A DNA stretch of 64,000 nucleotides, from positions 41,439-105,438 of the forward strand of contig JAKQEQ010000073.1 in NCBI GenBank assembly GCA_029556545.1, read 5' to 3'. Of the stretch, positions 4,942 through 23,793 are shown piece after piece. How positions within the stretch are numbered: the stretch's first letter is position 1; every line of letters begins with the position of its first letter. The translations under genes were made by a program, and so were the position numbers. The notes beneath the pieces are model-generated. The model made no database searches. It saw only the letters and a program-made list of their open reading frames with translations, and had not been told where the DNA came from. The DNA is from Candidatus Hydrogenedentota bacterium. Its GTDB lineage: Bacteria; Hydrogenedentota; Hydrogenedentia; Hydrogenedentales; JAGMZX01.

Positions 4942-4970
4942 CGCTATAATCCTCGTTGTCCGTGTGCATA

Positions 4971-5738: not shown

Positions 5739-5777
5739 GATGTCGATCCTTTCCGTGGACGCGAGCCGCGCGGGACG

Positions 5778-6710: not shown

Positions 6711-6913
6711 GGCCTGCTCCTCCTGCCGAGGCACGCATTGTCTCGGGGCATGACGGAGTCTATCGTGGCGTTTACACACGCCCGTTTGGATAACAGCGCT
6801 TTTCCGGGCATTTTCGAGAGACTATGTTGGCCGCGGCGACTCCGAGCAACTCGCGTCATGCATAATTCACACTCCGTGAAGGGGCCGAGTTATTGTGAAT
6901 ACGCCCTTATATA

Positions 6914-7744
6914 CTATTCGTCCACGTCCAATTTGGTTCCGACTGGACAAGACATATATTGCGCCGGAAATTCCCGCCACAATCGCGCCATTGCGGGGAA
7001 TCCGGTGCAGTGGGCCGACATCAGGCGCTGTACGCGGAGACGGCGGAATGCTTCGACCGTCTTGTCCATGCGTTCCGGACTTGCCGACACAAGATGCATT
7101 CCGCCGATGACGGTGTGAATAGGCCGATTATCCGTCAGGGACTGCACGTATTGGAGCGTATTGACAACGCCGGCGTGCGCACAGCCGAGGACAACGACGG
7201 TTCCTTCCGATGTCTCGAAATACAGGGCCTGATCGTCGGGGAAATCGTCCGGCTCACGGCACGCGTAATCCGTGAAGAACGGTCCTCCGGCGTCCTCGAA
7301 GTCCGTCCGCCGGGGAATTGGTCCCGTGACGTACAGCCCCGCGGCGATTTCCGTCGGCGCTTCCGTCCACACCAGGCCTGTCCGCCTGCGGACCGCCTCG
7401 ACGGCGTCCCGCGGCATACCGATTTCGCGCGGCGTGCCGTCAGGCATTCGGGCGTACCTCGACGCGAGCGCGGCAGGATGCAGAAACACTACGGGATGCG
7501 TCTGTACATCGAGGACATCCGCCAGACCGCCGGTATGGTCAAAGTGGCCGTGACTCAGCACGACGGCATCGGCGGTTTCCAGGGGGATATTGAGGCGGCG
7601 GGCATTATTCTCCAGGACATAGCCCTGACCCGTATCGAAGAGGACGTTGCGCCCGGCGTGTTCGACCCAAAACGACAGCCCGTGTTCCGCCAAGAGCGCT
7701 TGCCCGGCGGCGGTGTTTTCGACGACAACCGTAATGCGCGACAT
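6914..7744 (-). CDS. MBL-fold metallo-hydrolase (COG1237-like)
   Basis: A 276-residue metallo-beta-lactamase-fold protein. The metal motif 'SHGHFDHTGG' (H65, H67, D69, H70) is intact, with later ligands in 'GCAHAGVVNT' and 'SAHCTGFP'. It resembles the COG1237 hydrolases that include 7,8-dihydropterin-6-yl-methyl-aminobenzene-phosphate synthase-like proteins. Genes of this type often accompany NifX/MinD clusters in anaerobes (recalled, not checked). Here it lies 215 bases downstream of the IscU-Mrp-NifX fusion on the same strand, so it may be the last gene of that operon. The substrate is unknown. Confidence 0.85.
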   Translation of the reverse strand: MSRITVVVENTAAGQALLAEHGLSFWVEHAGRNVLFDTGQGYVLENNARRLNIPLETADAVVLSHGHFDHTGGLADVLDVQTHPVVFLHPAALASRYARMPDGTPREIGMPRDAVEAVRRRTGLVWTEAPTEIAAGLYVTGPIPRRTDFEDAGGPFFTDYACREPDDFPDDQALYFETSEGTVVVLGCAHAGVVNTLQYVQSLTDNRPIHTVIGGMHLVSASPERMDKTVEAFRRLRVQRLMSAHCTGFPAMARLWREFPAQYMSCPVGTKLDVDE

Positions 7745-7959
7745 GATTGACCTACTCCTTCCGAGTTGTTGGCGAAGCCTGATCCAGGTTCCACGGAGCG
7801 TTCTGGGCCGACTTGCCGCCCGTGAAGCCGTATAACGCCGTATATGCTCGGTCTTTTCCGACAGCCTCTCGCGAATGACGAATCATTCAATCAGGAGCGT
7901 CACGCGACGCAAGCGCATCGGCTATTTGGATGCGTGACTTGATCAGCACCCGTTTGCGG

Positions 7960-9591
7960 TCAATGGTCGCAGACGTTCTCGCCGGTCTGGAGTGTGCCGT
8001 CAAGGTAGGCCCGGACGAGTTGTTCGGGGGTCTCCGAAGGCGCGCCGATGATGACGTGTATGTTGTGTTCCTCGAACAGGTTTCGGGCGCGCGATCCCAT
8101 GCCCCCGGCGATGATCACGTGGGCGCCCTGCTCCGCGAGCCAACGCGGCAACAAGCCGGGCTGGTGTTCGGGAGCATCCACCGTTTCCGTCTTAATAAGC
8201 TGTCCGGTGGAATGGTCCACGTCCACCAGCGCGAACTGCGCGCAATGGCCGAAATGCATGGCCAGTGCTCCGTTGGCAATTGGTACGGCGATACGCATGT
8301 ATTTACTCTCCTCTTCGATGGTTGTCGGGGTCTTGGCGCCCTCAAGCGCGAGAATGGGCTGCATCACGTGTTCAAATGCCTTAGCTGTCTCGGTCTGCGC
8401 ATAGTGATACACATAGGGCGCGCCGGCATCGCAGGCTTCGCCCACCTGGGAGTCCAACGGGATGCGGCCCAGGAAGGGCACGTTCATCTCGTCCGCCATG
8501 CGCTCGCCGCCGCCGACCTTGAAGATGTTGGTGACCTCGCCGCAGTGGGGGCAGACGAATCCGCTCATGTTCTCGATTACCCCCAGCACCGGCAGGCGCA
8601 GTGATCGGCAGAAGCTGATCGATCTGCGGACGTCGGCCACCGAGACGTCCTGCGGCGTGGTCACAATGACCGCGCCGTCCGCGTTCTCGATCAACTGGCA
8701 GACGGATAGCGGTTCGTCACCGGTCCCCGGCGGCGAATCAATCACGAGATAATCCAGGTCGCCCCATTCGCAGTCCTTGAGGAACTGCTTGATGACCCCC
8801 ATTTTCATCGGTCCGCGCCAGATGACGGCGTCGTCGGGGCTGTGGAGGAAGAAGCCAAGCGACAGCACCTTCATGGCGCCGACCTCAATCGGTATTATCG
8901 CGCCGCCTTCACTTAAGACAGCCGCGCCCTCGAGGCGAAGCATTTTCGGGATGCTCGGGCCGTGGATGTCCACGTCCAGCAATCCCACCCGCCGGCCAGC
9001 CAACGAAAGCGATACAGCGAGATTCACCGCGACGGTGCTCTTGCCCACGCCGCCTTTGCCGGAGAGCACGAGAATCTTGTGCGCGATTCGGTCAAGCCGT
9101 TGCGCGAGGATTCGGCGTTCCAGGAAGGCCTCGTCACTTTCATCGTCCCGTCGCGCCGTCGTAGCGGCGTCCTCGGCGGCACAACCCTCGGCCGCACAGG
9201 AATCACACGACGCAGCCCCCCGCCTGTGCAGGTAATCCTGCGCGGCTGCTTGCATGGTATTGGCAGCCAAGAGCGCGCAATGCCAGTGGTCTTCCGGAAA
9301 AGGCTCGAGTTCTTCGAGGATATCCTCTTGCTCCATTTCGAGAGCGGTCTTGATGGACCGACCTACGGCCAGTTCCGTGACCATGCTCCCGCAGGCGCAG
9401 GAAGGGCCGCAACCGGTCGTGGTGAAAGTTGCTTCCTTGACCCAACCCTTCTCGACGCGGAGCCAAATCTCCATCGTATCGCCGCACGGGCCGGTAATTC
9501 GGGCGTGACCATTGGCCTCCGCCAGAGAACCCATGTTCCGTGGGTTCTCGAAGCGCTCGAACGCCCTGTGTGAAATCATATTTGTCGGCAT
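7960..9591 (-). CDS. IscU-like / Mrp ATPase / NifX-like three-domain fusion
   Basis: A 543-residue protein with three parts. Residues 5-125 are IscU/NifU-N-like, with likely cluster ligands C36 ('GPCGDT'), C61 ('GCGPSCACGS') and C105 ('HWHCALLAANT'). A Cys-rich linker follows (C129, C132, C137). Residues 170-420 are Mrp/ApbC/NBP35-like, with P-loop 'SGKGGVGKST' (177-186), 'SPPGTGDE' and the bridging pair 'CPHC' (347-350). Residues 432-540 are a dinitrogenase iron-molybdenum cofactor (NifX/NifB C-terminal) domain. It probably builds and transfers Fe-S or mixed-metal clusters. ATG 9591 is preferred over GTG 9615 because GAGG lies 9 bases upstream of it. Mrp-NifX fusions are known in ORP clusters; the added IscU domain is less usual. 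Confidence 0.9.
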   Translation of the reverse strand: MPTNMISHRAFERFENPRNMGSLAEANGHARITGPCGDTMEIWLRVEKGWVKEATFTTTGCGPSCACGSMVTELAVGRSIKTALEMEQEDILEELEPFPEDHWHCALLAANTMQAAAQDYLHRRGAASCDSCAAEGCAAEDAATTARRDDESDEAFLERRILAQRLDRIAHKILVLSGKGGVGKSTVAVNLAVSLSLAGRRVGLLDVDIHGPSIPKMLRLEGAAVLSEGGAIIPIEVGAMKVLSLGFFLHSPDDAVIWRGPMKMGVIKQFLKDCEWGDLDYLVIDSPPGTGDEPLSVCQLIENADGAVIVTTPQDVSVADVRRSISFCRSLRLPVLGVIENMSGFVCPHCGEVTNIFKVGGGERMADEMNVPFLGRIPLDSQVGEACDAGAPYVYHYAQTETAKAFEHVMQPILALEGAKTPTTIEEESKYMRIAVPIANGALAMHFGHCAQFALVDVDHSTGQLIKTETVDAPEHQPGLLPRWLAEQGAHVIIAGGMGSRARNLFEEHNIHVIIGAPSETPEQLVRAYLDGTLQTGENVCDH

Positions 9592-9691
9592 TCCCTGATT
9601 CCTCAAACCAATCACACCAATACCGATGGCGCCGCAAACAAGCGGACGCCAAACTCGTGGTCTATGCTGTCTCGTTTCTCCACGTTATTCC

Positions 9692-10729
9692 TTATGGCGC
9701 TTCGCGATTCGCCTTGGGCTTATCCAGTTGCATCAATGCCGAGACTGCGGCCCAGACGTTTCTGATATCGTCCGCGACACCGTTGTTCGAGTATTCAAGA
9801 ACGCTCTTGCCCGCGACTTGCGCGGCCGTGACAGCCCGGTCATATCGAATTCTGCCGACGGGTGTTGCGTCTAAGGTCACCGCGGCGGCCTCGATGGCGT
9901 CGGTCATATCGGGATTCAGGTCCCACTTGTTCACGCCTACCACGGCGGGAATGCGGAAGTGGCGCGCGAGTTCGGCGACGCGCTGCAAGTCGTGCTGACC
10001 GCTGAGCGTGGGTTCCGTTACGATGAGGACCAGTGACGCGCCCGTAAGACTGGCGATAACGGGACAGCCGATTCCCGGCGGTCCGTCAACGAGGATGAAC
10101 TCCTTGTTCTGGTCTTGAGCAAGCTGTCGTGCCTGTTGCCGGACAAGACTCACGAGTTTTCCTGAGTTGTCGGCGGCAATACCGAGGCGGGCGTGCACCA
10201 TGGGGCCGTGGCGCGTGTCGGAGATAAACCACTCCCCTGAGACCCGTTCCGGAAAACTGATGGCCTTCACCGGGCAGATGTCCACGCAGACGCCGCATCC
10301 CTCACACGAAATAGGATCAACGACAAAGGCTGTCTTGCGCGCTTCGCCGGACGCCTCCCTCATGGCGTTAATCATGTCAAGCGACCGGAGCGGACATGAC
10401 CGCACGCACACGTCGCAATCGTTGCAGGCGTGAATCCCGGCGCCAAACATCCATGCCAGGTCCGCGTTCGACACGGTCCTTATCGCGTCAAATCGGCAGT
10501 TCACCAGACACGCGCCGCATCCAATGCAGGCGTCTTGCCGGATCACGGCTTCGTGCCCGCTGCGAAACTCATTACGCGACCGAATCTCGGGTTGCAGCAC
10601 CAAATGAAGGTCCGCGGCATCCACGTCGCAGTCCGCCAAGACCTTTGAGGGCGTCAGTGCTGCGAACGCGGCGACGATGCTCGTCTTGCCCGTCCCCCCT
10701 TTACCGCTGACAACGACCAGTTCCTTCAT
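9692..10729 (-). CDS. MinD-superfamily ATPase with inserted ferredoxin motifs (B)
   Basis: A 345-residue ParA/MinD-type P-loop ATPase of the COG1149 kind. The deviant Walker A is 'SGKGGTGKTS' (8-17). The ferredoxin insert carries three CxxCxxCxxxC motifs: C68-C78, C102-C112 and C142-C152. The usual number in this family, and in the neighbouring paralogue, is two. 'LVDGPPGIGCP' marks the Walker B/switch region. These proteins are thought to bind [4Fe-4S] clusters and act in cluster delivery. It overlaps the upstream radical SAM gene by four bases (10726-10729), implying translational coupling. Confidence 0.92.
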   Translation of the reverse strand: MKELVVVSGKGGTGKTSIVAAFAALTPSKVLADCDVDAADLHLVLQPEIRSRNEFRSGHEAVIRQDACIGCGACLVNCRFDAIRTVSNADLAWMFGAGIHACNDCDVCVRSCPLRSLDMINAMREASGEARKTAFVVDPISCEGCGVCVDICPVKAISFPERVSGEWFISDTRHGPMVHARLGIAADNSGKLVSLVRQQARQLAQDQNKEFILVDGPPGIGCPVIASLTGASLVLIVTEPTLSGQHDLQRVAELARHFRIPAVVGVNKWDLNPDMTDAIEAAAVTLDATPVGRIRYDRAVTAAQVAGKSVLEYSNNGVADDIRNVWAAVSALMQLDKPKANREAP

Positions 10730-11706
10730 TCGACTGCTTCCTCATCCGCGCCATGAGCGGCCGCAAAAAAAGCGACGCCCCCGAGACGCTTCTCAACGAC
10801 GGCGTTTTCCTCCAGCAAACGTTGCAGGAGCTTCGATACTTCAACGGCCCGTAACCCGAGGGCCACAGCAATCTCGCTGACCGGGCAGGGTCGCCGCTTG
10901 AGCAATTCCAGGATCGGCCCCGCGGTGGGATAGGCGTCCAGTTCCTCGGGCACGCCGCTGTAGTCCGCGATGACCTCCGCGCGGGGGCTGAACAACGCGG
11001 CCAGCGTTTCCAGGCGGGCGCGGGAAACCGGCACGGCAAAGGATTCCGCGGGCGGCCGCGCCACCGTGTTTAGTTGAACACGATCAGGGCGACTATGCCA
11101 GACCTGATCGGCGATTTCCCTAACTTCCGATTCCTCGGCGTTAATGCCTTCCATGAGCATTACCTCGAGCCAGATCGCATTGCGGAACGAGTCCCGAAAT
11201 GCACTGAGCCCGTCGAGCATTTGTTCGAACGGCAATCCGGGCGCCGGCCGATTGATGCGTTCATACAATCGGGCATTGCCCGCGTCCAGCGAGGGCAAGA
11301 CGAGATCGGCGTCGCGCAGGGCTTCTCGAACTTCGGCGTCCCAGAGAAGCGAACCGTTTGTGAGGACGGCCAGCGGGGCGTTTGTCCGTATCTTCACGCC
11401 CTCCACGATATCGCCGAGGCGCGCGTGCAGTGTGGGCTCGCCCGCGCCGGACAGCGTGACGTAGTCGGGCGCGGGGCGCGAGGACAAGAAGTGATCGAGC
11501 TCGGCGAGTATCTCAGAAACGGGAACATATTCCTCTCGACGCGTCGTATGTCTTGTGGTCCGCCCCTGCTCGCAATACACACAGTTGTAGGTGCACGTCT
11601 TGAACGGCAGCATATCGACGCCCAATGACCGTCCCAGGCGCCGCGACAGCACGGGGCCGAAGAGGCGTCGGTATTTCGGTGTCACGTTCTGCGCGGGCTG
11701 TGTCAT
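10726..11706 (-). CDS. Radical SAM protein (COG0731-like) with C-terminal winged helix
   Basis: A 326-residue radical SAM protein with 'CTYNCVYC' (C38, C42, C45), glycine motif 'TLSGAGEPTLH' and 'LAVLTNGSLL', like COG0731-type enzymes. Residues about 255-315 look like a winged-helix or small DNA/protein-binding domain ('ILELLKRRPCPVSEIAVALG'). It is wedged between two MinD/ferredoxin ATPase genes, with four-base overlaps on both sides, so it belongs to the cluster by position. The substrate is unknown. Possible roles are cofactor modification, or regulation if the winged helix binds DNA (inference). Confidence 0.85.
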   Translation of the reverse strand: MTQPAQNVTPKYRRLFGPVLSRRLGRSLGVDMLPFKTCTYNCVYCEQGRTTRHTTRREEYVPVSEILAELDHFLSSRPAPDYVTLSGAGEPTLHARLGDIVEGVKIRTNAPLAVLTNGSLLWDAEVREALRDADLVLPSLDAGNARLYERINRPAPGLPFEQMLDGLSAFRDSFRNAIWLEVMLMEGINAEESEVREIADQVWHSRPDRVQLNTVARPPAESFAVPVSRARLETLAALFSPRAEVIADYSGVPEELDAYPTAGPILELLKRRPCPVSEIAVALGLRAVEVSKLLQRLLEENAVVEKRLGGVAFFAAAHGADEEAVE

Positions 11707-12578
11707 GTGGCGCTCTGGACTCCGTTGGGGGCTGAGAGCAGATCGCGAATCCGCAGATCCAGTTGAAGGAAGAAAGGGCGCACATCCGGAAGGGATTCCA
11801 CGGCCATGCAGCCGCGAGAATAGGCCTCCGCGATACGCCGGTCATCGGGAATCTCGATCAGAATCGGGATTTCCTCGCGTTGGCAGTAGTCGGTTACGCG
11901 GTCATCGCCAATATCGCAACGGTTGACCACGACGCCAAACGGGATGCCGATCTGCCGAACCGTGTCCACGGCAAGCGTCAGGTCGTGCAGGCCGAAGGGG
12001 GTCGGCTCGGTGACCAAAACGACAAAGTCGCTGTCTTTGACGGCGGCAATCACGGGACACGAGGTTCCAGGCGGGGCATCGAGAATTACGGTGCCTTCGG
12101 ACGGAGATGCGGCCTTGGCCGCGCGAATGAGCGGGGGCGACATTGCCACGCCGATCTTCAAGCGTCCCTGAACGAAGCAGATATCGTTTGCGCGGCCTGT
12201 CTCGACCACGCCGATTTCGTGGTCGCATTCCGATATCGCATGTTCCGGACATGCCAGCATGCACCCGCCGCAACCGTGGCACAGTTCCGTAAACACGAGC
12301 ACTCTGCCTTTCACGCAGGCCAGCGCGTTATAACGGCACGCGGTTACGCATCGTGCGCAGCCGGTACATTTCTCTTTGTCCACTATGGGAACCGGAATGG
12401 CGACGCTGTTCGCGGCGGTGATGGCGGGCTTCAAGAATATATGGCCGTTCGGCTCTTCAACGTCGCAATCGACGTAGGCAACAGGGCCCTCCATGACCGC
12501 CGCGAGGTTCACGGCAATTGTGGTTTTTCCCGTGCCGCCTTTACCGGAGGCAATGGCAATGATTCGTCGTTCACGCAT
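11703..12578 (-). CDS. MinD-superfamily ATPase with inserted ferredoxin motifs (A)
   Basis: A 291-residue paralogue of the ATPase at 9692-10729. Walker A is 'SGKGGTGKTT' (11-20), and two ferredoxin motifs are present: C71-C81 ('CTGCARCVTAC') and C100-C110 ('CHGCGGCMLAC'). The Walker B/switch segment is 'ILDAPPGTSCP'. Such pairs of MinD/ferredoxin ATPases are a hallmark of ORP clusters. ATG 12578 is chosen because it gives the family start 'MRERRIIAIASGKGG'. It overlaps the methyltransferase gene upstream by 8 bases and the radical SAM gene downstream by 4. Confidence 0.92.
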   Translation of the reverse strand: MRERRIIAIASGKGGTGKTTIAVNLAAVMEGPVAYVDCDVEEPNGHIFLKPAITAANSVAIPVPIVDKEKCTGCARCVTACRYNALACVKGRVLVFTELCHGCGGCMLACPEHAISECDHEIGVVETGRANDICFVQGRLKIGVAMSPPLIRAAKAASPSEGTVILDAPPGTSCPVIAAVKDSDFVVLVTEPTPFGLHDLTLAVDTVRQIGIPFGVVVNRCDIGDDRVTDYCQREEIPILIEIPDDRRIAEAYSRGCMAVESLPDVRPFFLQLDLRIRDLLSAPNGVQSAT

Positions 12579-13233
12579 GGACTGATTTCCTGAAGCAATG
12601 GATGCCTGCAAAACGAAAACCAAATCGAGTAAACACGAATAGACCGGTGGAAGCGACCGCGGCGTGGATGTCCGCTCTGCTCATGTGATGATCGCTGACC
12701 GTAAGCAGACCGCGTGGTCCGGTCAGACGATATATTTCGGCAAGTACGCTCGCAGGGTCCGGCAGTTCGTGTAGAACGTCATAGACTATGGCCACGTCGA
12801 CAGTGCCGGGCGGGATGTGGTCCAAGTCGGTCGCCATGAGCGTTGTGATATTTGTGAATTTCTTTCTTGTCATTGTGTGGCGAACGGCGGCCAAGGCAAG
12901 CGGATTCACGTCGATCGCGAAAACTCGGCCCTCCGGTCCCACTATCTCGGCCGCCGCGATGGAGAACGCGCCGGGGCCGCAACCGAAGTCCAGTACCGTC
13001 TGGCTTGGCGTCAGACCGACCTCGTGAAGGATGGCCAAAGGCGGCTGGAACAGGTCTCGGATACGAAAGCCGAGCGCCATGAGCGAGAATGAAAGTCGAC
13101 CTTGAGGGGCCGCATGCGTCCGGTGATTCCGCTGCCGCCTGATCCTCCGGGCCCTATTTGTGGAACCATTTCCGCGTGCGTTGTTCTCGTTTTCAAGGCG
13201 CGGAACGCGCGTGCTGGGCCTTATTTCATTCAT
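12571..13233 (-). CDS. Class I SAM-dependent methyltransferase
   Basis: A 220-residue protein with a Rossmann methyltransferase core: motif I 'VLDFGCGPGAFSIAAAE', the acidic 'VFAIDVNPLAL', motif II 'VDVAIVYDVLHEL' and post II 'GPRGLLTVSDHHM'. It resembles small UbiE-like enzymes that sit in metal-related clusters. ATG 13233 has a good GGAGG nine bases upstream. An internal ATG at 13080 begins nearer the homology but lacks a Shine-Dalgarno, and the basic, low-similarity first ~50 residues leave the start uncertain. It overlaps the following MinD gene by 8 bases. The substrate is unknown. Confidence 0.82.
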   Translation of the reverse strand: MNEIRPSTRVPRLENENNARGNGSTNRARRIRRQRNHRTHAAPQGRLSFSLMALGFRIRDLFQPPLAILHEVGLTPSQTVLDFGCGPGAFSIAAAEIVGPEGRVFAIDVNPLALAAVRHTMTRKKFTNITTLMATDLDHIPPGTVDVAIVYDVLHELPDPASVLAEIYRLTGPRGLLTVSDHHMSRADIHAAVASTGLFVFTRFGFRFAGIHCFRKSVHA

Positions 13234-13298
13234 GCTTGAGCGCCTCCACGCATACTTGAGGTTAAGAATATCGCCATTTGCGGACCGTGGCCTTTCAC

Positions 13299-15326
13299 CT
13301 AGACGCGCTTGTCGAGCAGTGAGACGCCCTCGAAATCCGAAGGGACGTCCGCCCCGAGATACGCAAGTGTAGTGACTCCTATGTCGATTATCGCCGGACC
13401 CTCGACCAATGGGCTGTTTGAGAAGAGTATCCCCGGTGTCCCGGCGACATCCGAAGCGGCGTGGTCGCCGCTCCACTTGTCGTCGTTCAACGAAATGACT
13501 TCCGCGGGCGCGGCTCCCGCGGCGGAGGTCTTATCCGTCTGATACCCTTCCGCGTAACCTAACTGGAGGTCCGGCGCGTCGTGAGCCGCGTCGCCGCGAT
13601 AGGCTTCCTCTCGCGTGTAGACTGCGCGGAAAATTCGCACATTGGACTCCTTATCCGTGGCCGCCAGGAGCCTGTCGCGGATTTCCGCTCTCAGGGCGGG
13701 CGCGTCTTCCGGAGAAACGGCGCCTTGTCCTTCACGTCCCTTGATGTTGAGGTAAATGCTTCCCAGTCCGAGGCCGTAGGCCCTGGTCCGGGACCAGTCG
13801 TATTCCGTGAGATACTTGGCGTCGGTGAATGACGTCTCCGCATCGTTCCGGCCCTTCACCGCGAGATAACCGTTGCGTATGAGCCAGGTGTTGACGCTGA
13901 AGCCCTTGCGGAAACTATGGAATCCGTGATCGGAAAGCACCATAAGCAAGTCGTCTTCATTAAGCGCCTCCATTACCTTTCCGACCGCGGCGTCCATCCG
14001 TGCGTAAGTGTCTTCGAGGGCTCTTTGAAAGGCTTTAGCGCTCTTCTCGCTGTAGGTTGGATGGCTAACGTCGCGAAAACGCCAGAACATGTGCGCGATG
14101 CGGTCGGTGCTTGTCCAGCCGCCAATAAGCAGATCGAAATCGCCGGAGCCCAACTCATCCAGGATGAGTTTGTCCTGCCAATCCATGGTCGCCCACGCCT
14201 CTTCCAGGAAGAGGGCTTCATCAAGTTCCCCCTGTTGCAGCGCCTTCGTGTCATCCGTCCAGCCGATGGTCTTGAACAACCCGAAGCGGTCCGCCAGTTG
14301 GCCCGCATACTCTTCCGGCGCGCTGATGGGCAGATGCGGCTCTTTGGGGTGCATTTGAAGGCACGTCATGTACAGCCGTACGCGGGCGCCGGCCTCGAGG
14401 ACGTGAACGCGGCTGATGGCGCGCACCGCAAACTTCGGGGTTACGGGGAAAGTCCACTCGATCCAGTCCGACCATGCATGCTCCGAGAGACTGACAGTCT
14501 TGCCCTGGATTCCCAGCGTGATTGCGTGTTGTCCCCGGTCGACAACGACAGTCATGGGTACTTCCACCGATCGTCTTTCGCGGGGATGGCGAAGACCGGG
14601 CACTTGCACCTCCGCTTTGTTCCCCTCGAACTTGAGCGGCAGTCGCATGCCCCCTGGAAGCTGTTCGGTCTCTGAGAAGGCGTCCGAAAACGCGAGAAAA
14701 GTGCTCTGCGTGCCGCGAATATCGGGGACGTCCAGCCCGCAGAGCATCAGGCTTTCCGCGAGCGGCTCCGGCGGGTAGGCATAGGGAACATTCAACAGCT
14801 TGCACCGCACGCCCTGGCGGTTGGCCACTCTCCAGAATGTCTCGCCTTTCCGGTAGTTTACATACTCGGCGGGTCGCAACAGGCTTCCGTCCGGAGCGAG
14901 TTCGGGGCTCCGCATCGCGCCGAAGCCAAGCCCCGGAATGTAGGTCTCCGGGTTCCGCCGAAGGAAATCATAGATGCCATGATTCCCCGGCCGCTTGCAC
15001 GTGGCGAAAGAAGACCATGCCGTCGGCGACTGCGGAGGATTGCTGGACAGCAATCGCCGGTAGTTGCCTGCGGCCCGCAGGGCACGCAGGTTCGGCAGTT
15101 CGCCTGCCCTGAGCATGTCGTCAATGATCGTGGGTTCGACGCCGTCGAAACCTAAGATCACCACGCGCCCACGCTTGGCCTTCTCGTGAATACCCGAGAC
15201 GGCCGCAAAGACCCGTTGATGCTTCTTGACGCCGCCCGAACCGAGCGCCCACGGAGCGAGCGCCGAAGAAGTTCGCGCAAGAAATGACCGGCGGGTAATT
15301 TTGGCGGTAGGCTGGCCGCGTTTCAT
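13299..15326 (-). CDS. Tat-exported type I phosphodiesterase / alkaline phosphatase superfamily protein
   Basis: A 675-residue protein. The N-terminus carries a twin-arginine motif ('ITRRSFLART', residues 10-19) and an Ala-rich stretch, predicting Tat export. The body is of the type I phosphodiesterase/nucleotide pyrophosphatase group: metal/nucleophile region 'VVILGFDGVEPT' (D61), 'QSPTAWSSFATCK', and later metal ligands 'GGWTSTDRIAHMFWR' and 'VLSDHGFHSF'. Families like this cleave phosphodiester or phosphoanhydride bonds of nucleotides or lipids. The gene overlaps the upstream NifX-like gene by four bases, so it is co-translated with an intracellular cofactor protein. That pairing is unusual and its purpose is unclear. 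Confidence 0.88.
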   Translation of the reverse strand: MKRGQPTAKITRRSFLARTSSALAPWALGSGGVKKHQRVFAAVSGIHEKAKRGRVVILGFDGVEPTIIDDMLRAGELPNLRALRAAGNYRRLLSSNPPQSPTAWSSFATCKRPGNHGIYDFLRRNPETYIPGLGFGAMRSPELAPDGSLLRPAEYVNYRKGETFWRVANRQGVRCKLLNVPYAYPPEPLAESLMLCGLDVPDIRGTQSTFLAFSDAFSETEQLPGGMRLPLKFEGNKAEVQVPGLRHPRERRSVEVPMTVVVDRGQHAITLGIQGKTVSLSEHAWSDWIEWTFPVTPKFAVRAISRVHVLEAGARVRLYMTCLQMHPKEPHLPISAPEEYAGQLADRFGLFKTIGWTDDTKALQQGELDEALFLEEAWATMDWQDKLILDELGSGDFDLLIGGWTSTDRIAHMFWRFRDVSHPTYSEKSAKAFQRALEDTYARMDAAVGKVMEALNEDDLLMVLSDHGFHSFRKGFSVNTWLIRNGYLAVKGRNDAETSFTDAKYLTEYDWSRTRAYGLGLGSIYLNIKGREGQGAVSPEDAPALRAEIRDRLLAATDKESNVRIFRAVYTREEAYRGDAAHDAPDLQLGYAEGYQTDKTSAAGAAPAEVISLNDDKWSGDHAASDVAGTPGILFSNSPLVEGPAIIDIGVTTLAYLGADVPSDFEGVSLLDKRV

Positions 15327-15685
15327 GTCCAGTGTCCCGCGACATTGGGTGCGTCCGTCGGAGTCAAGGCGCCCGACTTGAAAGCTTCGATCGCTTCCGA
15401 AACCGTGCCTTGCGCGCCGACCATGACTTTGATGCCAGCGGAAGCCAGCGTCCTGAACGCATTCGGGCCGCAGTGCCCGGTGATCAGCGCTTCCGCGCCC
15501 AGGCGCGATACGGTGTCGGCGGCCTGAATGCCCGCGCCTTGGGCGGCGTTCAGGTTCTGGACATTGTCATGCGCCGACCACGCGCCCGTCTCCGTATCCA
15601 CAACGATGAGATAGGCCGCGCGTCCGAATCGCGGGTCCACTTGCGCGTCAAGGGATTGGCCCGACGCCGTAACGACTACTTTCAT
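15323..15685 (-). CDS. NifB/NifX-family metal-sulfur cofactor-binding protein (B), ORP-like
   Basis: A 120-residue single-domain protein of the dinitrogenase iron-molybdenum cofactor family. It has 'MKVVVTASGQSLDAQVDPRFGR' in two parts, the central 'LGAEALITGHCGPNAFRTL' segment and the C-terminal 'EAIEAFKSGALTP'. Stand-alone members include the MTH1175-like proteins and the Desulfovibrio orange protein ORP, which binds a Mo-Cu-S cluster. One cysteine is visible, in 'GHCGPNAF'. ATG 15685 is preceded by GGAGG at 8-base spacing. It is the most ORP-like gene of the cluster by size and position. Confidence 0.85.
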   Translation of the reverse strand: MKVVVTASGQSLDAQVDPRFGRAAYLIVVDTETGAWSAHDNVQNLNAAQGAGIQAADTVSRLGAEALITGHCGPNAFRTLASAGIKVMVGAQGTVSEAIEAFKSGALTPTDAPNVAGHWT

Positions 15686-15957
15686 GTTTGCCTCCAGTAC
15701 CGCGAAGTTCTTGCGGCTAAACCTGTTCAGACAGTCGCGGCGCTGTCCGACGCTCGCGCGGTCTCCGAACTGATCCGAATGAACATCACGCCAAGAAGTC
15801 GCGTTGCGTGTTATCTGGGCTATTCTTGCGTGAGACAGCCCCTATCTGTGCGGACACTTCTTCAGCACCATGAACCAGTCAAGGACCTTGGTGCCCGCGC
15901 CTGGCTGCTCGACCCGTTCCTTGGCCGTTCCACAGGAACCTGGCGACGGGCCGCTCA

Positions 15958-16320
15958 CTATTTCTCGGTGTCGGCGCCGGCCGCCAGCGTGTCCAGGCGC
16001 TGCCGGATCACGTCGAGTTGCTGCTGAAGCATCTCCGCTTGGCGCTGCAAGAGGACGCGCTCGGCCTCGCCCGGCGACGCGACGGGAACGGTCGCCGCGC
16101 CCCAACCAAAGCGCATCCAACCGGGCAGGCCGGTAGCGTAATACCAATGCCGCCACCCGCGGCCGCCGCCACCGCCGCCGCGCCCAAATCCGCGTCCCCA
16201 GAAACCTCGACCTGGGACCGGATTGGCATATCCCGGCATGTCAAACCCGGCACAACGCCCCGCGCCGCGCCCCGTCATGGGTCCCGCTCCGAGCGGGCCT
16301 GTTCTATCTCCGCCTGGCAT
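15958..16320 (-). CDS. DUF5320 domain-containing protein
   Basis: A 120-residue protein with the DUF5320 N-terminus 'MPGGDRTGPLGAGPMTGRGAG' in two parts, followed by 'GRCAGFDMPGY', a Gly/Arg/Trp-rich middle and a C-terminal coiled-coil-like helix (about residues 88-115, 'LLQRQAEMLQQQLDVIRQRL'). Such proteins are found beside NifX-like genes in anaerobes and have no known activity. It lies between the zinc-ribbon gene and NifX-like B on the same strand. Another frame over the same DNA is longer at the 3' side but lacks family resemblance. Confidence 0.8.
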   Translation of the reverse strand: MPGGDRTGPLGAGPMTGRGAGRCAGFDMPGYANPVPGRGFWGRGFGRGGGGGGRGWRHWYYATGLPGWMRFGWGAATVPVASPGEAERVLLQRQAEMLQQQLDVIRQRLDTLAAGADTEK

Positions 16321-16384
16321 TTCATGTCTCCCTTATTCACGGGCCTCGCCCGTTTGCTGGATACCGCAATACAAACGCCTGGGG

Positions 16385-16636
16385 TCAACCACGGCGCATG
16401 GCCACGCCGCACGTGGGACAGGTGACTTGAGCGCACGGCACACCGCGCTCGTGCGGTTGCGAATGACCGCATTGCGGACAGACGCATACCCCGCCAAGTC
16501 CCGCCGCATTTCCGCCTTGCCGTCCTTGCCCGCCACCTGCTTGGCCTCCGCGCCCGCGGCCTTGTCCCTGCCCGCCGCCGACGCCGCCGCTACCGCCAGC
16601 ACGCCCGCCGCCTTTTCCTTTTCCGAATCCAAACAT
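16385..16636 (-). CDS. Gly-rich zinc-ribbon small protein
   Basis: An 83-residue protein starting 'MFGFGKGKGGG'. The first ~50 residues are Gly/Gln/Arg low complexity. The C-terminus carries two CPxCG knuckles ('VCPQCGHSQPH', 'VTCPTCGVAMRRG') that would bind one metal. Its ATG overlaps the TAA of NifX-like A by one base (TAATG at 16638-16634), indicating translational coupling. The function is unknown; position suggests an accessory of the cofactor cluster. The flexible Gly-rich half resembles disordered linkers seen with DUF5320 genes. Confidence 0.75.
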   Translation of the reverse strand: MFGFGKGKGGGRAGGSGGVGGGQGQGRGRGGQAGGGQGRQGGNAAGLGGVCVCPQCGHSQPHERGVPCAQVTCPTCGVAMRRG

Positions 16637-17067
16637 TACTTTTTCTCCAGAGTAGGTCTTACTTCGATGACCTCCCTTTGTTGGGCCGGCCCGCAACGGC
16701 CGCGTCGCGCGCGCAAGCGCCGCCCGCGGCCGCAACCGCAGCCCGGCATTGAAAACGCCTTGCTGGGAACGCCGCCCGCGATCACCGCGTCCATAACCTC
16801 ACCGAACTCACCGGAGACAAACGGAACCAATCGGATACCGGAGGCAGTCACCAAGTCGGCCAGCGGACGGGAAACCGCGCCGCACACCAGCACCTCAACG
16901 CCCAAGGCGCGGAGCCGCGCGACTTTTTCGTGTCCCGAATCGGCCGGCAATTCCTCACTACGCTGGGAAACGAGGCCGCCCCCGTCGATATCAGCGACCA
17001 CAAGCGCCCGCGCCGTGTCGAGGACCGGCGATATCCTGCCTTCCCATATGGTCATTGCAACTTTCAC
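16636..17067 (-). CDS. NifX-like cofactor-binding protein (A) with Cys/Arg-rich tail
   Basis: A 143-residue protein. With a GTG start at 17067 it reads 'MKVAMTIWEGRISPVLDTAR', the standard N-terminus of one NifX-like subgroup, followed by 'LRALGVEVLVCGAVSRPLADLV' in two parts. The tail after about residue 105 carries a tight Cys group ('PGCGCGRG') and further Arg and Cys, which could bind metal. A longer frame starting at ATG 17118 is rejected: it overlaps the -24/-12 promoter and adds residues absent from the family. AAGG lies 8 bases before the GTG. It is the first gene of the sigma54-controlled operon. Confidence 0.83.
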   Translation of the reverse strand: MKVAMTIWEGRISPVLDTARALVVADIDGGGLVSQRSEELPADSGHEKVARLRALGVEVLVCGAVSRPLADLVTASGIRLVPFVSGEFGEVMDAVIAGGVPSKAFSMPGCGCGRGRRLRARRGRCGPAQQREVIEVRPTLEKK

Positions 17068-17105
17068 CGTCGAGCCCTTACTGGCAACTTCATGCAAGAA
17101 GAGAG

Positions 17106-17122
17106 AAGCAGGAACCATGCCG
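17106..17122 (-). promoter_or_regulatory. Putative sigma54 (-24/-12) promoter of the NifX/Mrp operon
   Basis: On the minus strand this reads CGGCATGGTTCCTGCTT. It keeps the invariant GG (-24) and GC (-12) dinucleotides at ten-base spacing, with GGCA and TGC of the consensus TGGCAC-N5-TTGCA. The start point would fall near 17096, giving a ~29-base leader to the GTG at 17067. A sigma54 activator gene and palindromic sites lie immediately upstream. Confidence 0.6.
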
Positions 17123-17209
17123 CAGTAGTCAATAGAGGATTAGAACATGTAAGGTATTGAGCCGCAGGCACTTAATGTTGTAGGCGCGGCCTTGGTATCG
17201 CAACACCAC

Positions 17210-17227
17210 AGTCGCAATATTGCGACT
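17210..17227. promoter_or_regulatory. Palindromic activator site 1 (perfect)
   Basis: AGTCGCAATATTGCGACT is a perfect 18-base palindrome. Its centre is about 122 bases upstream of the predicted sigma54 start, the usual distance for an enhancer-type site. A further TCGCAA half-site lies at 17198-17203. Confidence 0.6.
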
Positions 17228-17243
17228 CTATGACGAGACGGGG

Positions 17244-17257
17244 TCGCAATTCTGCGA
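17244..17257. promoter_or_regulatory. Palindromic activator site 2 (imperfect)
   Basis: TCGCAATTCTGCGA repeats site 1 with mismatches only at the centre. The two centres are 32 bases apart, about three helical turns, as expected for cooperative binding of two activator dimers on one DNA face. Confidence 0.55.
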
Positions 17258-17262
17258 TGCTA

Positions 17263-18654
17263 TTATTGTCCGGGGCGCGCCGTTCGCCCGTCCTCGCGGG
17301 GTGGGGAGATACCCAAAGCCCGAATCTTGCGGAATAGGGTGCTCTTATGCATGCCCAATAATTGGGCGGCTTCCGTGCGATTCCCGCCGCATTGTTCCAG
17401 CGCATTCAGAATTGCCTGCGCTTCCGCGGTCTTCACGGTCTGACCAAATGCGGATACGGAGGCCGGCGGCATCGAGCGTCGCTTCGCGGCGAGGGATTCC
17501 GGCAGACAGCGCGCGCGGATGGAGGCGTCCGGGCAGATCACGAAGGCATGTTCGATGATGTTCTCCAGTTCGCGAACGTTGCCGGGATAATCATGGGCCA
17601 TGAGCAGCGCCATGGCCGCCGGGGATACGCCCGCGACGGCGCGTCCCTGCATCTGATTGAATCGGTGGATGAAGTGCTCGACTAGCAGGGGGATGTCTTC
17701 CTTGCGTTCTCGCAGGGCCGGCAGTTCCAGCCGCACCACGTTGATGCGGTAGTAGAGGTCCCGCCGAAATTCTCCCTTGGCTACCAAATCCGCGAGGTTC
17801 TTGTTGGTCGCCGTGACAACGCGGACATCGGTCTTGATCGACTGCGTGCCGCCGAGCGGTTCGTACTTCTTTTCCTGGAGCACGCGCAGCAGCCGCACTT
17901 GGAGGGCCGCGCTCACGTCTCCGATCTCGTCCAGGAACAAGGTGCCGCCTTTCGCCAGCGCAAAACGGCCGGGCTTCTCCTTGTCCGCGCCGGTGAAGGC
18001 GCCCTCCTTGTATCCAAACAACTCCGATTCGAGCAGGGTATCCGGCAGGGCGCCGCAATTGACCGCCACAAACGGCCCGTCCTTTCGGGCGCTCATCGTG
18101 TGCAACGCGCGCGCGAGCAGTTCCTTCCCGGTGCCCGTTTCGCCCTCGATGACGACCGTGGCGTCGCTCGCGGCGATCTGCGGCAACACGTCGAACAACT
18201 TTCGCATCGACGCGCTCCGGCTGACCATGTCGCCCACTTCGTACCGTTGCGCAATCTCCTTTCGCAGCTCCTCGACAAGGCTCAGGTCGCGGAAGGTCTC
18301 GACGCCGCCTACGATCTTCCCCTGTGCACTTCGCAGCAGGGCGGTGGACACGCTGATCGGAATGCGCCGTCCATTGGCGTCGATGATGAAGGCGGACTTG
18401 TTGATAATCGGCTTGCCCGAGTCCATGGTCTGGCGCAGCGCGCATTCGGTCTCGCACATGCTCGCCCGAAACACCTCGCAGCACCGCCGCCCGATGGCTT
18501 CTTCGCGGGGGATTCCGGTGATCTCCTCCGCCGCATGGTTAAACGAGGTCACCCGCCACTCATGGTCCACCGTGAAGACACCGTCCGATATGCTTTCCAG
18601 AATGATCCGCGTGCTTTCCGGGGGCAAGACGTTCGTTGTTCGTGTTCCGCTCAT
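17263..18654 (-). CDS. PAS-domain sigma54-dependent transcriptional activator
   Basis: A 463-residue enhancer-binding protein. Residues 14-125 form a PAS domain with four cysteines (C58, C59, C67, C71). The AAA+ domain has Walker A 'GETGTGKE' (171-178), the sigma54-contact loop 'GAFTGA' (218-223) and Walker B 'GGTLFLDEIG' (236-245). A Fis-type helix-turn-helix covers 412-447 ('NRTEAAQLLGMHKSTLFRKI'). ATG 18654 is preferred because the 61-residue upstream extension has no family match. The gene ends just before two palindromes and a -24/-12 promoter, so it very likely activates the NifX/Mrp operon downstream, as the cognate regulator does in Desulfovibrio ORP clusters. Confidence 0.92.
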   Translation of the reverse strand: MSGTRTTNVLPPESTRIILESISDGVFTVDHEWRVTSFNHAAEEITGIPREEAIGRRCCEVFRASMCETECALRQTMDSGKPIINKSAFIIDANGRRIPISVSTALLRSAQGKIVGGVETFRDLSLVEELRKEIAQRYEVGDMVSRSASMRKLFDVLPQIAASDATVVIEGETGTGKELLARALHTMSARKDGPFVAVNCGALPDTLLESELFGYKEGAFTGADKEKPGRFALAKGGTLFLDEIGDVSAALQVRLLRVLQEKKYEPLGGTQSIKTDVRVVTATNKNLADLVAKGEFRRDLYYRINVVRLELPALRERKEDIPLLVEHFIHRFNQMQGRAVAGVSPAAMALLMAHDYPGNVRELENIIEHAFVICPDASIRARCLPESLAAKRRSMPPASVSAFGQTVKTAEAQAILNALEQCGGNRTEAAQLLGMHKSTLFRKIRALGISPPREDGRTARPGQ

Positions 18655-18732: not shown

Positions 18733-18824
18733 GAAGAAGGGTCGTGACGAAACACGTGTACAAGTCTGAAAGCCGACAGCGCCTCGCTCCGGCGAGGAGC
18801 GGGCGCCGCGCGAGGAGGTGGGCC

Positions 18825-21320
18825 ATGCGCGGAGCAAACATTCGGTATACTGTCTTCCTGGGAATCAGCCTGGCTGTCGTGGGTCCCGTGTTCGGGGGCC
18901 CCATCCATACGGCGGACCGTGACGGGGACCGCTGCGTCAGTCTCTCCGAACTACTGCGCGTTGTCCAGTTCTTCAATAGTCGCGCCTACCATTGCGATAC
19001 TGAAGGCGAGGACGGCTACGCCCCCGGGGGCGGTAAGGACCACTCGTGTCCGCCTCACGATTCCGATTACATGGAAGCGGACTGGCGTATCAGCCTGTCG
19101 GAACTCCTGCGCCTGATTCAGTTCTATAATTCGACGGGTTATTTCCGCGCCGGGGACACCGAGGACGGCTTCGCGCCTGATTTGGGACTCCGCGAACAGC
19201 CCGGCTTGGCGGGTCATTACAGCGCGTTCAGTAATCCGGTCCAACCGAGCGCGCCCGGCTACGCGCTGCCACTGTCCGTGGCCGGCATCGTCAACTACGA
19301 GGTATTCGACAGCCGTTTCGGTCTGCAAGCCGTGGAAAGTCACCTTGCAGCCAACGGCTTTGCTGTCATGGAATATGATCTGACGCCGTTCTACCCGGGG
19401 CAGGAGACGAACGACGACGTCATTTCGCCTTACCAGTACTTCAACGAAGACAACCTCCCGATTTTCATCACGTCCGACTCGTTGTTGCATCTGTACCACG
19501 TGCAGTTCGGCGAAACGCTGAAGGACGTCGAGGAGCGCGAATTCATTCCGGACATCACCGCGTTGACGGCGGCCCTGCTCGATGCGGTCTTGGCGCAACA
19601 TGACGACCTGACGGGCGACCTGCAAGAGGCGGCCCGGCGCGACGCGGCCTATCTCGCCGTGGCCCGAAAACTGCTTGAACCCGCGGCGGACACGCCGGCG
19701 CTTGTGGCGGACGTGGTCTCGAGCGAGATCGCCAAGATTGAAGCGCACGCGGGCTTCGCGGCGAGCGATATTCTCGTCTACGAGGAAGATTACTCGCAGT
19801 ACGTCCCGCGAGGCCATTACACGCGCAGCGAGGCTCTCGAACGCTACTTCAAGGCAATGATGTGGTACGGTCGCCTGGCGTTCCTTCTCAAAGGCGATGA
19901 GGACTGGGGAAGGGAGGGCACTGCCCTGGTCAGCGTCCACGATGCCAAAATCCAGACGCTACAGGCCGTGCTGCTGGCCAAGGCCATCGAGGACGTCGCC
20001 GTGGGCGAGCGCGCCGGCCGCGAGGTCTGGGACCGCATCTACGCCATTACCTCCTTCTACGTCGGGGTGGCGGACGACCTCACACCCTATGAATACATCG
20101 AAGTCATTACCCGGCTCTTTGGAGATGACTTCAACGTTTTGGAACTTGAGGACGAGACGGCTTTCTTCGACCTCAAGGCCGAGTTGTCGTTACTGCGGGC
20201 GCCGCAAATCTATGGGGGCACGGGCAATATCTACGTAACCCCGCCCGTGACGCCGGAGACGTTGAACGAGACGCTCGACAAGACAAAAGGCATGCGGTTC
20301 ATGGGCCAGCGGTTCATCCCCGATTCGTACATGTTCCAGCGCCTCGTTTTCTCGTCGGTCCAGGACTATATCGGGACCATGAATCCGCCGCCGTTTTCGT
20401 ATGGCTTTACGGGTGCGCGCTTCGCGCGTTGCTATCCTCGGGGTCTCGACGTCATGGCCATTCTCGAATCTGAATTGGCGGAGACGATTCTCGAGGAGGG
20501 CGGCGATACGGACTACCTCGAATTCGACGACCGCTTCAATGAACTCAAAGACCTGTTCAACGGCTTTGACGAAGCGGCCTGGAACCAGAATCTCTATTGG
20601 GGCTGGCTGTATGTTCTGAAGACGCTGCTCGAACCGGCGCCGGAAGGTTCTCCCAGCTTTATGGGGACGGAGGCTTGGCGGAAGAAGCAACTCAATGCCG
20701 CGCTGGCTTCCTGGGCGGAACTGCGCCACGACACCATTCTCTACGCGAAGCAGAGCTACACGGAAACCGAATCCGGCGTGCCCGAACTGCCGCCGGGCTA
20801 CGTCGAGCCCGTACCCGATTTCTTCGGGCGGCTCATGGCGCTGACACGGATGACCCGCGAGGGGCTCGCCGCGTTCGGCGCCCTTTCCGAGGCGGCCGCC
20901 GCTCGCCTTGAACTGCTCGAAGGGCTGCTTCAGCGGCTTATCGAGATCGCGAACAAGGAGTTGGTGAACGAGCCCTTGTCCGAGTGGGACATCTGGTTCA
21001 TCAAGAGCTTCGGCGATACCCTCGAAGGGGTGGTGTTGGGCGTCGAGGAAGAAGGCGTGAAAACGACGCTCGTGGCGGACGTGCACACGCACGCCCTCGA
21101 AGGCAACGTGGTGGAGGAGGCTGTCGGCGACGTGGACTTGATCTTCGTGGCCTGTCCCACGCCCGCCGGGGACGTATTCCTGGCCGTCGGCCCCGTGCTT
21201 TCCTACTACGAGTTCAAGCATCCCATGAGCGACCGCTTGACCGACGAAGCGTGGCGCGACATGCTCGCCGGGCCGGAGCGGCCCGCCCGCCCGGAATGGT
21301 ACGCGCCGCTCGTGAATTAA
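18825..21320 (+). CDS. Secreted DUF3160 protein with paired dockerin-like motifs
   Basis: An 831-residue exported protein. ATG 18825 is chosen for its near-perfect AGGAGG six bases upstream. A signal peptide ('YTVFLGISLAVVGPVFGG') precedes two calcium-loop/dockerin-like repeats: 'DRDGDRCVSLSELLRVVQFF' and 'WRISLSELLRLIQFYNS' (about residues 30-95). The remainder is a DUF3160 domain ('NYEVFDSRFGLQAVE...', 'LPIFITSDSLLHLYHVQFGE', 'YEFKHPMSDRLTDEAWRDML'). DUF3160 has no assigned activity. The repeat pair is typical of secreted proteins in Hydrogenedentes-like genomes and may anchor the protein on the cell surface (inference). Confidence 0.85.
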   Translation: MRGANIRYTVFLGISLAVVGPVFGGPIHTADRDGDRCVSLSELLRVVQFFNSRAYHCDTEGEDGYAPGGGKDHSCPPHDSDYMEADWRISLSELLRLIQFYNSTGYFRAGDTEDGFAPDLGLREQPGLAGHYSAFSNPVQPSAPGYALPLSVAGIVNYEVFDSRFGLQAVESHLAANGFAVMEYDLTPFYPGQETNDDVISPYQYFNEDNLPIFITSDSLLHLYHVQFGETLKDVEEREFIPDITALTAALLDAVLAQHDDLTGDLQEAARRDAAYLAVARKLLEPAADTPALVADVVSSEIAKIEAHAGFAASDILVYEEDYSQYVPRGHYTRSEALERYFKAMMWYGRLAFLLKGDEDWGREGTALVSVHDAKIQTLQAVLLAKAIEDVAVGERAGREVWDRIYAITSFYVGVADDLTPYEYIEVITRLFGDDFNVLELEDETAFFDLKAELSLLRAPQIYGGTGNIYVTPPVTPETLNETLDKTKGMRFMGQRFIPDSYMFQRLVFSSVQDYIGTMNPPPFSYGFTGARFARCYPRGLDVMAILESELAETILEEGGDTDYLEFDDRFNELKDLFNGFDEAAWNQNLYWGWLYVLKTLLEPAPEGSPSFMGTEAWRKKQLNAALASWAELRHDTILYAKQSYTETESGVPELPPGYVEPVPDFFGRLMALTRMTREGLAAFGALSEAAAARLELLEGLLQRLIEIANKELVNEPLSEWDIWFIKSFGDTLEGVVLGVEEEGVKTTLVADVHTHALEGNVVEEAVGDVDLIFVACPTPAGDVFLAVGPVLSYYEFKHPMSDRLTDEAWRDMLAGPERPARPEWYAPLVN

Positions 21321-22090: not shown

Positions 22091-22165
22091 GCCCCGATAG
22101 TTCAGTGGATAGAACGAGGCCCTCCTAAGGCTTAAACGCAGGTTCGATTCCTGCTCGGGGCGCCA
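22091..22165 (+). tRNA. tRNA-Arg (anticodon CCT)
   Basis: A 75-base cloverleaf with encoded CCA. Acceptor stem GCCCCGA/TCGGGGC, D arm GTTC...GAAC, anticodon loop CTCCTAA (anticodon CCT), and T arm GCAGG-TTCGATT-CCTGC. It reads AGG codons. An AT-rich stretch (22029-22090) lies in front. The 3' half overlaps, in antisense, the last codons of the serine recombinase gene, marking it as the integration site of the downstream element. Confidence 0.95.
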
Positions 22166-23759: not shown

Positions 23760-23793
23760 GTCAAACACTCCCGCGCGGAATTTGTGGTCTGGG

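Follow-up and report, generated by a model that had tools for sequence, protein, structure and literature searches.

What is a gene cluster of the 'orange protein' (ORP) kind doing with a radical S-adenosylmethionine (SAM) protein, a methyltransferase and a phosphodiesterase with a twin-arginine translocation (Tat) signal among its genes? The question is raised by twelve co-directional genes on the minus strand, at positions 6914-18654 of the window, the whole 64,000-nucleotide stretch analysed here (contig JAKQEQ010000073.1, positions 41,439 to 105,438, from a Candidatus Hydrogenedentota bacterium, assembly GCA_029556545.1). ORP systems are widespread in anaerobes. A preliminary description had called the locus an ORP-type cluster with added enzymes, and had proposed that the set may build, or couple to export, an undescribed metal-sulfur cofactor. 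We find good support for reading the cluster as the known ORP kind in a novel variant form, with lineage-specific SAM-enzyme additions. An anaerobe-specific operon for handling iron-sulfur (or thiometallate), carrying these additions, is the function that we consider likely, with a probability of roughly 0.6.

Assignment to the ORP type

The core proteins carry the assignment. NifXb (15323..15685, minus strand like all genes of the cluster; 120 residues; PF02579, 1.2e-23) has its best match among solved structures in the ORP of Desulfovibrio gigas (PDB 2wfb; E 3.4e-22, 113 residues aligned), and the Mrp protein (7960..9615) reaches 545.8 bits with NF041136, the equivalog model of MrpORP, for which the cut-off is 450. 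With them are found two MinD/ferredoxin ATPases, MinD1 (11703..12578; CbiA and Fer4, two [4Fe-4S] motifs) and MinD2 (9692..10729; CbiA and Fer4), and a sigma54 activator with palindromic sites by its gene. Since ORP homologue, MrpORP above its cut-off, MinD/ferredoxin pair and activator with palindromes occur together, the cluster belongs, by its predicted proteins, to the ORP type and is related to the 'orange protein' iron-sulfur handling system of anaerobes, and the earlier designation is borne out. The divergent operon pair of D. vulgaris is absent, every gene lying on one strand; we regard that pair as a species trait and not as a defining one.

The Mrp protein is a triple fusion of NifU_N (PF01592, 5.9e-28), Mrp/ParA (PF10609, 2.5e-102) and NifX (PF02579, 9.3e-21) domains, which joins scaffold, carrier and ORP-like domain in a single chain; the preliminary description had rightly seen a fusion and had overlooked its N-terminal NifU_N domain. 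All three scaffold cysteines of NifU_N are in place (GPCGD, TTGCGPS, HWHCALL), and the NifX domain reads AMHFGHCA with a terminal CDH, a partial retention of the CXHFGHCE and CDH motifs of MrpORP. The MrpORP of D. vulgaris binds iron-sulfur clusters through both its domains, the NifX domain included, and transfers one in vitro to the MinD/ferredoxin proteins Orp3 and Orp4 (PMC6345978).

NifXa (16636..17067; PF02579, 31 bits) combines a NifX domain with an MPGC motif and a cationic Gly/Arg/Cys-rich tail. The motif, as [ML]PGC, was present in 27 of 28 NifXa-type sequences, the window included, and the tail is usual among them. Judged by composition only, NifXa fits the pattern of IssA, which is a NifX-type domain followed by a cationic Gly-rich tail. 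IssA of Pyrococcus furiosus is a thioferrate store, and its tail has been proposed to wrap the anionic thioferrate (PMC5524996).

Our comparisons covered 68 genomes of the phylum, from one order, and the 80 best-matching MinD1-type loci across phyla (L102-L181); many of the contigs in the latter are short and counts made on them are lower bounds. MrpORP-like proteins were found, at a strict threshold, in 10 of the 68 genomes. Among the matches listed, FeoB, Fur-family regulators and DUF364/DUF4213 (putative metal chelation) recur beside MinD1 loci, as do DUF134, ARMT1-like (DUF89), CGGC, PvlArgDC (pyruvoyl arginine decarboxylase) and TrmO proteins. A family of about 250 residues with no Pfam match also recurs by MinD/ferredoxin pairs (for example L104:9087-9995).

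Regulation upstream of NifXa

The activator gene (17263..18654) encodes a PAS-AAA+-Fis protein with a GAFTGA motif (Sigma54_activat 3.2e-70, PAS, HTH_8). It is split from the operon by a regulatory spacer of ~195 bp, hence there are at least two transcription units. Within the spacer lies a perfect 18-bp palindrome, AGTCGCAATATTGCGACT (17210..17227), a putative activator site which is the sole exact GTCGCA-N4-TGCGAC in the 6.1-Mb genome; 32 bp from it stands a second putative site, ATCGCAGAATTGCGAC (17243..17258), which has one mismatch and is one of 24 genome sites within that limit. The exact palindrome core occupies the same place in 8 of the 21 clusters tested, the window counted, its other holders being Smithella, Desulfofustis, Desulfobulbaceae, Syntrophaceae and three further genomes of the phylum. 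Over the 21 clusters the mean palindrome score was 10.0 against 7.7 in shuffles, above all 200 of them (maximum 8.1). In D. vulgaris, transcription of the orp operons depends on sigma54 and IHF together with the activator DVU2106, which acts at palindromic sites (PMC3897727). As the palindrome is unique in the genome and kept in place across relatives, the activator very probably controls the genes from NifXa onward, its own gene being a separate unit. Such a conserved activator-site code marks the ORP regulon in uncultured phyla.

A putative sigma54 -24/-12 box, CGGCATGGTTCCTGCT (17107..17122, minus strand), precedes NifXa, whose start is most likely the GTG at 17067, downstream of the box, rather than 17118. 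The box is strong in relatives: a second member of the genus (G001, ORP locus L031) has TGGCACGGGTTCTGCT in the corresponding position, strong boxes occur in G014 and G016 too, and sigma54 control looks conserved across them.

Gene order and its conservation

All the genes listed in the preliminary description (activator, NifX pair, DUF5320, zinc ribbon, MinD pair, Mrp, MBL and three enzymes) are present on the minus strand, and their overlaps are real. In transcription order NifXa is followed by a Gly/Arg-rich zinc-ribbon protein (16385..16636; CPQC...CPTC), for which the Pfam search gave no match and which has homologues at many MinD1 loci, a DUF5320 protein (15958..16320; PF17253, 5.5e-28), NifXb, the phosphodiesterase, the methyltransferase, MinD1, the radical SAM protein, MinD2, the triple fusion and a metallo-beta-lactamase (MBL)-fold hydrolase (6914..7744; PF00753, 1.5e-12; best PDB match TM1679, 4.5e-36). 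NifXa overlaps the zinc-ribbon gene at TAATG, the methyltransferase gene runs 8 bp into that of MinD1, and 4-bp overlaps join NifXb to the phosphodiesterase, MinD1 to the radical SAM gene and the radical SAM gene to MinD2. The 272-bp gap between DUF5320 and NifXb contains a relic of a peroxiredoxin gene, its last 36 codons (15851..15958, minus strand; 64% identity, E 1e-10, to the gene of G010); in G010 the peroxiredoxin is intact at the same cluster position (L033:256-984) and above the family cut-off. Internal terminators and sigma70 promoters within the cluster showed no excess over shuffles.

The cluster of G001 has the same order as the window, its phosphodiesterase, methyltransferase and radical SAM protein being 65%, 44% and 55% identical, respectively, and the core order is kept within the phylum. 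That the order recurs in a second species, and the core across many phyla, argues that the grouping is not due to chance. Further ORP-type clusters were met around the radical SAM gene in seven genomes (G002, G013, G014, G050, G052, G060, G067). The radical SAM gene lies between the MinD genes, with no phosphodiesterase, in G002, G009, G014 and G015, and the clusters of G016, G020 and G045 have none of the three added enzymes. The ORP proteins of the window resemble those of G002 and G016, which belong to other families, roughly as much as those of G001 (activator 78%, 78% and 69%; NifXb 74%, 70% and 64% identity, respectively). Set against the 85% identity of an ordinary phosphodiesterase between the two genus members, this cross-family closeness implies that ORP clusters evolved fast or moved between lineages. 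The phosphodiesterase and methyltransferase have kept their place through that history; this, seen in two genomes only, is the strongest reason to think them relevant to the operon.

The cluster of G001 has extras of its own (L031:2608-5044, 13859-15316), namely a Tat-signal amidohydrolase, a DSP-type phosphatase and a second methyltransferase before the MBL gene, and also a catalase-like open reading frame between activator and NifXa. In the window, genes for an ABC ATPase, an ABC membrane protein and a TPR protein lie just downstream of the cluster (4027-6779). We rejected them as a part of it; they occur in 11 of the 68 genomes and are absent from G001, and the membrane protein is 83% identical to that of two other-family genomes with no detected MrpORP. 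They were probably acquired horizontally, separately from the cluster. On the other side, a gene for a DUF3160 protein (18744-21320; PF11369, 4e-198) is divergent to the activator gene; the protein repeats a DxDxD-type motif close to its N-terminus. Beyond this gene lies that of a serine recombinase with a zinc ribbon (22125-23768).

Radical SAM protein and methyltransferase

The radical SAM protein (10726..11706; PF04055, 5.4e-19) stands alone, with a CX3CX2C motif, a radical SAM barrel and a C-terminus that is modelled as a winged helix. A sequence search of solved structures gave no match for this protein or for the phosphodiesterase, and models were therefore folded for both. In the fold search pyruvate formate-lyase activase, NifB, TYW1 and RlmN tied as best (Z 19-20). 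The ligands of the NifB auxiliary clusters and a NifX-type C-terminal domain were looked for in the protein and are absent, and only C38, C42, C45 and C274 are invariant in eight diverse relatives, which makes NifB-type chemistry with auxiliary clusters appear unlikely. NCBIfam has no specific name for the radical SAM protein, the methyltransferase or the phosphodiesterase, and a PHROGs search gave nothing useful.

The radical SAM gene was found on the same strand in at least 15 of the 80 cross-phylum loci, in bacteria and archaea (Planctomycetota, Thermodesulfobacteriota, Omnitrophota, Chloroflexota, Raymondbacteria, Bipolaricaulota, Pseudomonadota, Bathyarchaeota and Methanophagales), and directly after MinD1, as in the window, in Smithella, Syntrophaceae and one unclassified bacterium. 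The chance of one gene per ~5-Mb genome landing within 20 kb is, by rough estimate, ~0.4%. The radical SAM protein is a recurrent accessory, probably either functional in the ORP system or co-regulated with it. Such a partner, in places with a methyltransferase, recurs from Planctomycetota to archaea, and in the literature searched, mostly outside subscription journals, no paper joined 'orange protein' with radical SAM/Mrp/NifX or with HydG.

The class I SAM methyltransferase (12571..13233, with an uncertain start at 13233 or 13080; PF13847, 2.8e-18) is of a type whose closest relatives were found only in ORP clusters. Within the phylum the matches fall from E 4e-51 for the genus clusters to 4e-19 for the next, with no close relative outside the two genus clusters, and the nearest cross-phylum relative, at 37%, is in an ORP cluster of Dehalococcoidia. 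Methyltransferases of at least three subfamilies lie inside about nine of the 80 loci; the radical SAM gene is present in 5 of these 9 and in 10 of the 71 others (Fisher p 0.01, kinship uncorrected). The methyltransferase can likewise be taken as a recurrent accessory, functional or co-regulated, with a weaker case than that of the radical SAM protein. The conservation in relatives which the preliminary description had proposed as a check on the extra genes is seen for these two, the radical SAM gene recurring in many phyla and methyltransferases recurring too.

A separate observation concerns HydG. Paralogues of it lie inside ORP clusters, in three of the phylum's genomes and in one Planctomycetaceae (L034:7469-8923, L033:6463-7917, L035:10748-12214, L149:7394-8887); where scored, in three genomes, they reach 465-478 bits against TIGR03955 (cut-off 312). 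The tree groups them in one clade (96/94), separately from 30 other HydGs found in the phylum, and two of the genomes also have a canonical HydG. CX3CX2C is present in 4 of 4 and CX2CX22C in 3 of 4. The window's genome has no HydG.

Tat phosphodiesterase

The phosphodiesterase (13299..15326; PF01663, 2e-34) is of the NPP type within the alkaline phosphatase (AP) superfamily and has a Tat signal; its gene is a lineage-specific insertion in the cluster. Its model aligns with NPP phosphodiesterases over 353 residues (Z 23, 3.9 A), and D61, S100, D408, H412, D466, H467 and H622 are invariant in 18 sequences, S100 being the putative nucleophile. The family is common in the phylum, in 55 of 68 genomes and 37 of 38 good ones. 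Two copies are found in the genus; in the tree the ORP copies group together (100/99) as sister to an ordinary copy from G043, and between the two species they have diverged faster than the ordinary copy (65% against 85% identity). The gene lies inside the operon only in the two genomes of the window's genus, is found in 0 of the 80 cross-phylum loci and is absent from the other inspected ORP clusters of the phylum. By this tree and distribution it is a duplicate of a phylum-wide enzyme, added at genus level, and is probably a passenger of the regulon; the comparison sets it apart from the ORP system. Export coupling of a cofactor, as suggested in the preliminary description, finds no comparative support as a feature of the general system, since the gene is inside the operon in this genus only.

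In G052 (L183:8312-17304) and G051 (L182) the ORP cluster ends in MBL and radical SAM genes, and a phosphodiesterase of the AP superfamily, convergent to it and from another lineage than the window's copy, adjoins it. An ORP-specific phosphodiesterase subfamily was considered and rejected, as the tree puts the ORP copies of the genus and those of G051/G052 in separate places.

Proposed role and alternatives

The role that we favour, and infer, is the anaerobic storage and delivery, under sigma54 control, of iron-sulfur or thiometallate; it is suggested by the MPGC motif and cationic tail of NifXa, the parallel with IssA and the iron genes recurring by MinD1 loci. When the PAS sensor fires, the activator at the two palindromes would open the sigma54 promoter before NifXa. 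NifXa through its cationic tail, the Gly/Arg-rich zinc ribbon, the DUF5320 protein and NifXb would hold anionic metal-sulfide units, and the NifU domain would build iron-sulfur units and hand them in cis to the Mrp NTPase with its CxxC. The NTPase would then load the two MinD/ferredoxin proteins, as Desulfovibrio MrpORP loads Orp3/Orp4. As SAM-dependent partners, the radical SAM protein and the methyltransferase would be either clients for the clusters or modifiers of a component, and the phosphodiesterase, probably co-transcribed, would most likely act outside the cytoplasm on a substrate of its own.

Several points weigh against this role. The metal might be Mo/Cu, the pair found in D. gigas ORP, and metal-sulfide binding by the tails is suggested by their composition only. 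The sigma54 box of the window is weak; a consensus scan allowing two mismatches did not return it and gave no more matches in the window than expected by chance, so that the promoter claim rests on position and on the relatives. Furthermore, the radical SAM tree mixes ORP-linked and unlinked copies, less than shuffled labels do, with 7 changes per label, a pattern suggesting that a more general enzyme was recruited repeatedly; the protein may therefore have a general role.

Alternatively, the radical SAM protein and the methyltransferase might be ordinary anaerobic modifiers of RNA or protein, which only need abundant iron-sulfur clusters and are co-regulated with the ORP genes, and do not act on the cofactor. 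TYW1 among the best folds, the C-terminal winged helix, the TrmO-family genes near some ORP clusters and the frequent siting of the radical SAM gene away from ORP genes are all consistent with this; but within the phylum no close counterpart of the window-type methyltransferase lies outside ORP clusters, and the radical SAM gene seems tightly coupled to its neighbours by the 4-bp overlaps on either side. We hold such ordinary modification to be possible but doubtful. That the two enzymes instead tailor an undescribed metal-sulfur cluster on NifX/ORP, the radical SAM protein taking a NifB-like position by NifX, we consider unlikely. The placement of its gene between the MinD genes in the window, Smithella, Syntrophaceae and others, its co-occurrence with methyltransferases, NifB among its closest folds and the HydG paralogues embedded in the clusters of relatives speak for it, whereas the three other folds match equally well, the NifB auxiliary ligands are missing and many ORP clusters have neither gene, so that this would be an optional branch. 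The cofactor idea of the preliminary description thus survives in the recurrence of radical SAM and methyltransferase genes and loses ground by the lack of nitrogenase and of the extra cysteine ligands of NifB. Its bolder extension, in which radical-SAM-partnered ORP clusters (with a stand-alone enzyme here and HydG paralogues in relatives) build new modified, possibly organometallic, metal-sulfur species on NifX/ORP, is quite improbable.

The phosphodiesterase, for its part, might serve an export or periplasmic step of a cofactor pathway, as its 4-bp overlap with NifXb, its same place in both genus members, its intact catalytic residues in a single clade of ORP copies at 65% identity, and the convergent gene of another AP lineage beside the G051/G052 cluster would allow. 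Its absence from all 80 cross-phylum loci and from the other inspected ORP clusters of the phylum, and an ordinary paralogue in 55 of 68 genomes, speak against such a part, and we know of no exported ORP partner; we judge it very improbable. Assembly of the nitrogenase FeMo-cofactor, which the presence of NifX, NifU and radical SAM genes together might bring to mind, was rejected as next to impossible, because no PF00148 component is found in the 96%-complete genome, while such proteins were detected in control genomes.

Comparison with known systems

Like NPP-type phosphodiesterases of the AP superfamily, the Tat phosphodiesterase has the PF01663 domain, a matching fold (Z 23) and the metal ligands, and it differs from them by a large inserted beta-rich region and the Tat signal. 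The cluster and the NifB/NifX pathway both place a similarly folded radical SAM barrel next to NifX proteins; the radical SAM protein here, however, has neither a NifX fusion nor auxiliary-cluster cysteines, and the genome has no nitrogenase. NifXa resembles IssA of P. furiosus in its apparent build, a NifX-type domain with a cationic Gly/Arg-rich tail, and has in addition the conserved MPGC motif and further cysteines. NifXb aligns with D. gigas ORP (2wfb) over 113 residues. The triple fusion shares with MrpORP (NF041136; Pardoux et al. 2019, PMC6345978) the P-loop NTPase with CxxC, the NifX domain, HFGHC and the terminal CDH, and departs from it in the N-terminal NifU_N domain and in the CXHFGHCE motif, where the first Cys and the last Glu are both replaced by Ala. 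The orp cluster of D. vulgaris Hildenborough (DVU2103-DVU2109) likewise has a sigma54 activator gene, palindromic sites, ORP/NifX, MrpORP and twin MinD/ferredoxin ATPases. Compared with its two divergent operons and GAFTDA activator, the window has one collinear operon after a GAFTGA activator, fuses a NifU domain to MrpORP, and adds genes for DUF5320, zinc-ribbon, MBL, radical SAM, methyltransferase and Tat phosphodiesterase proteins.

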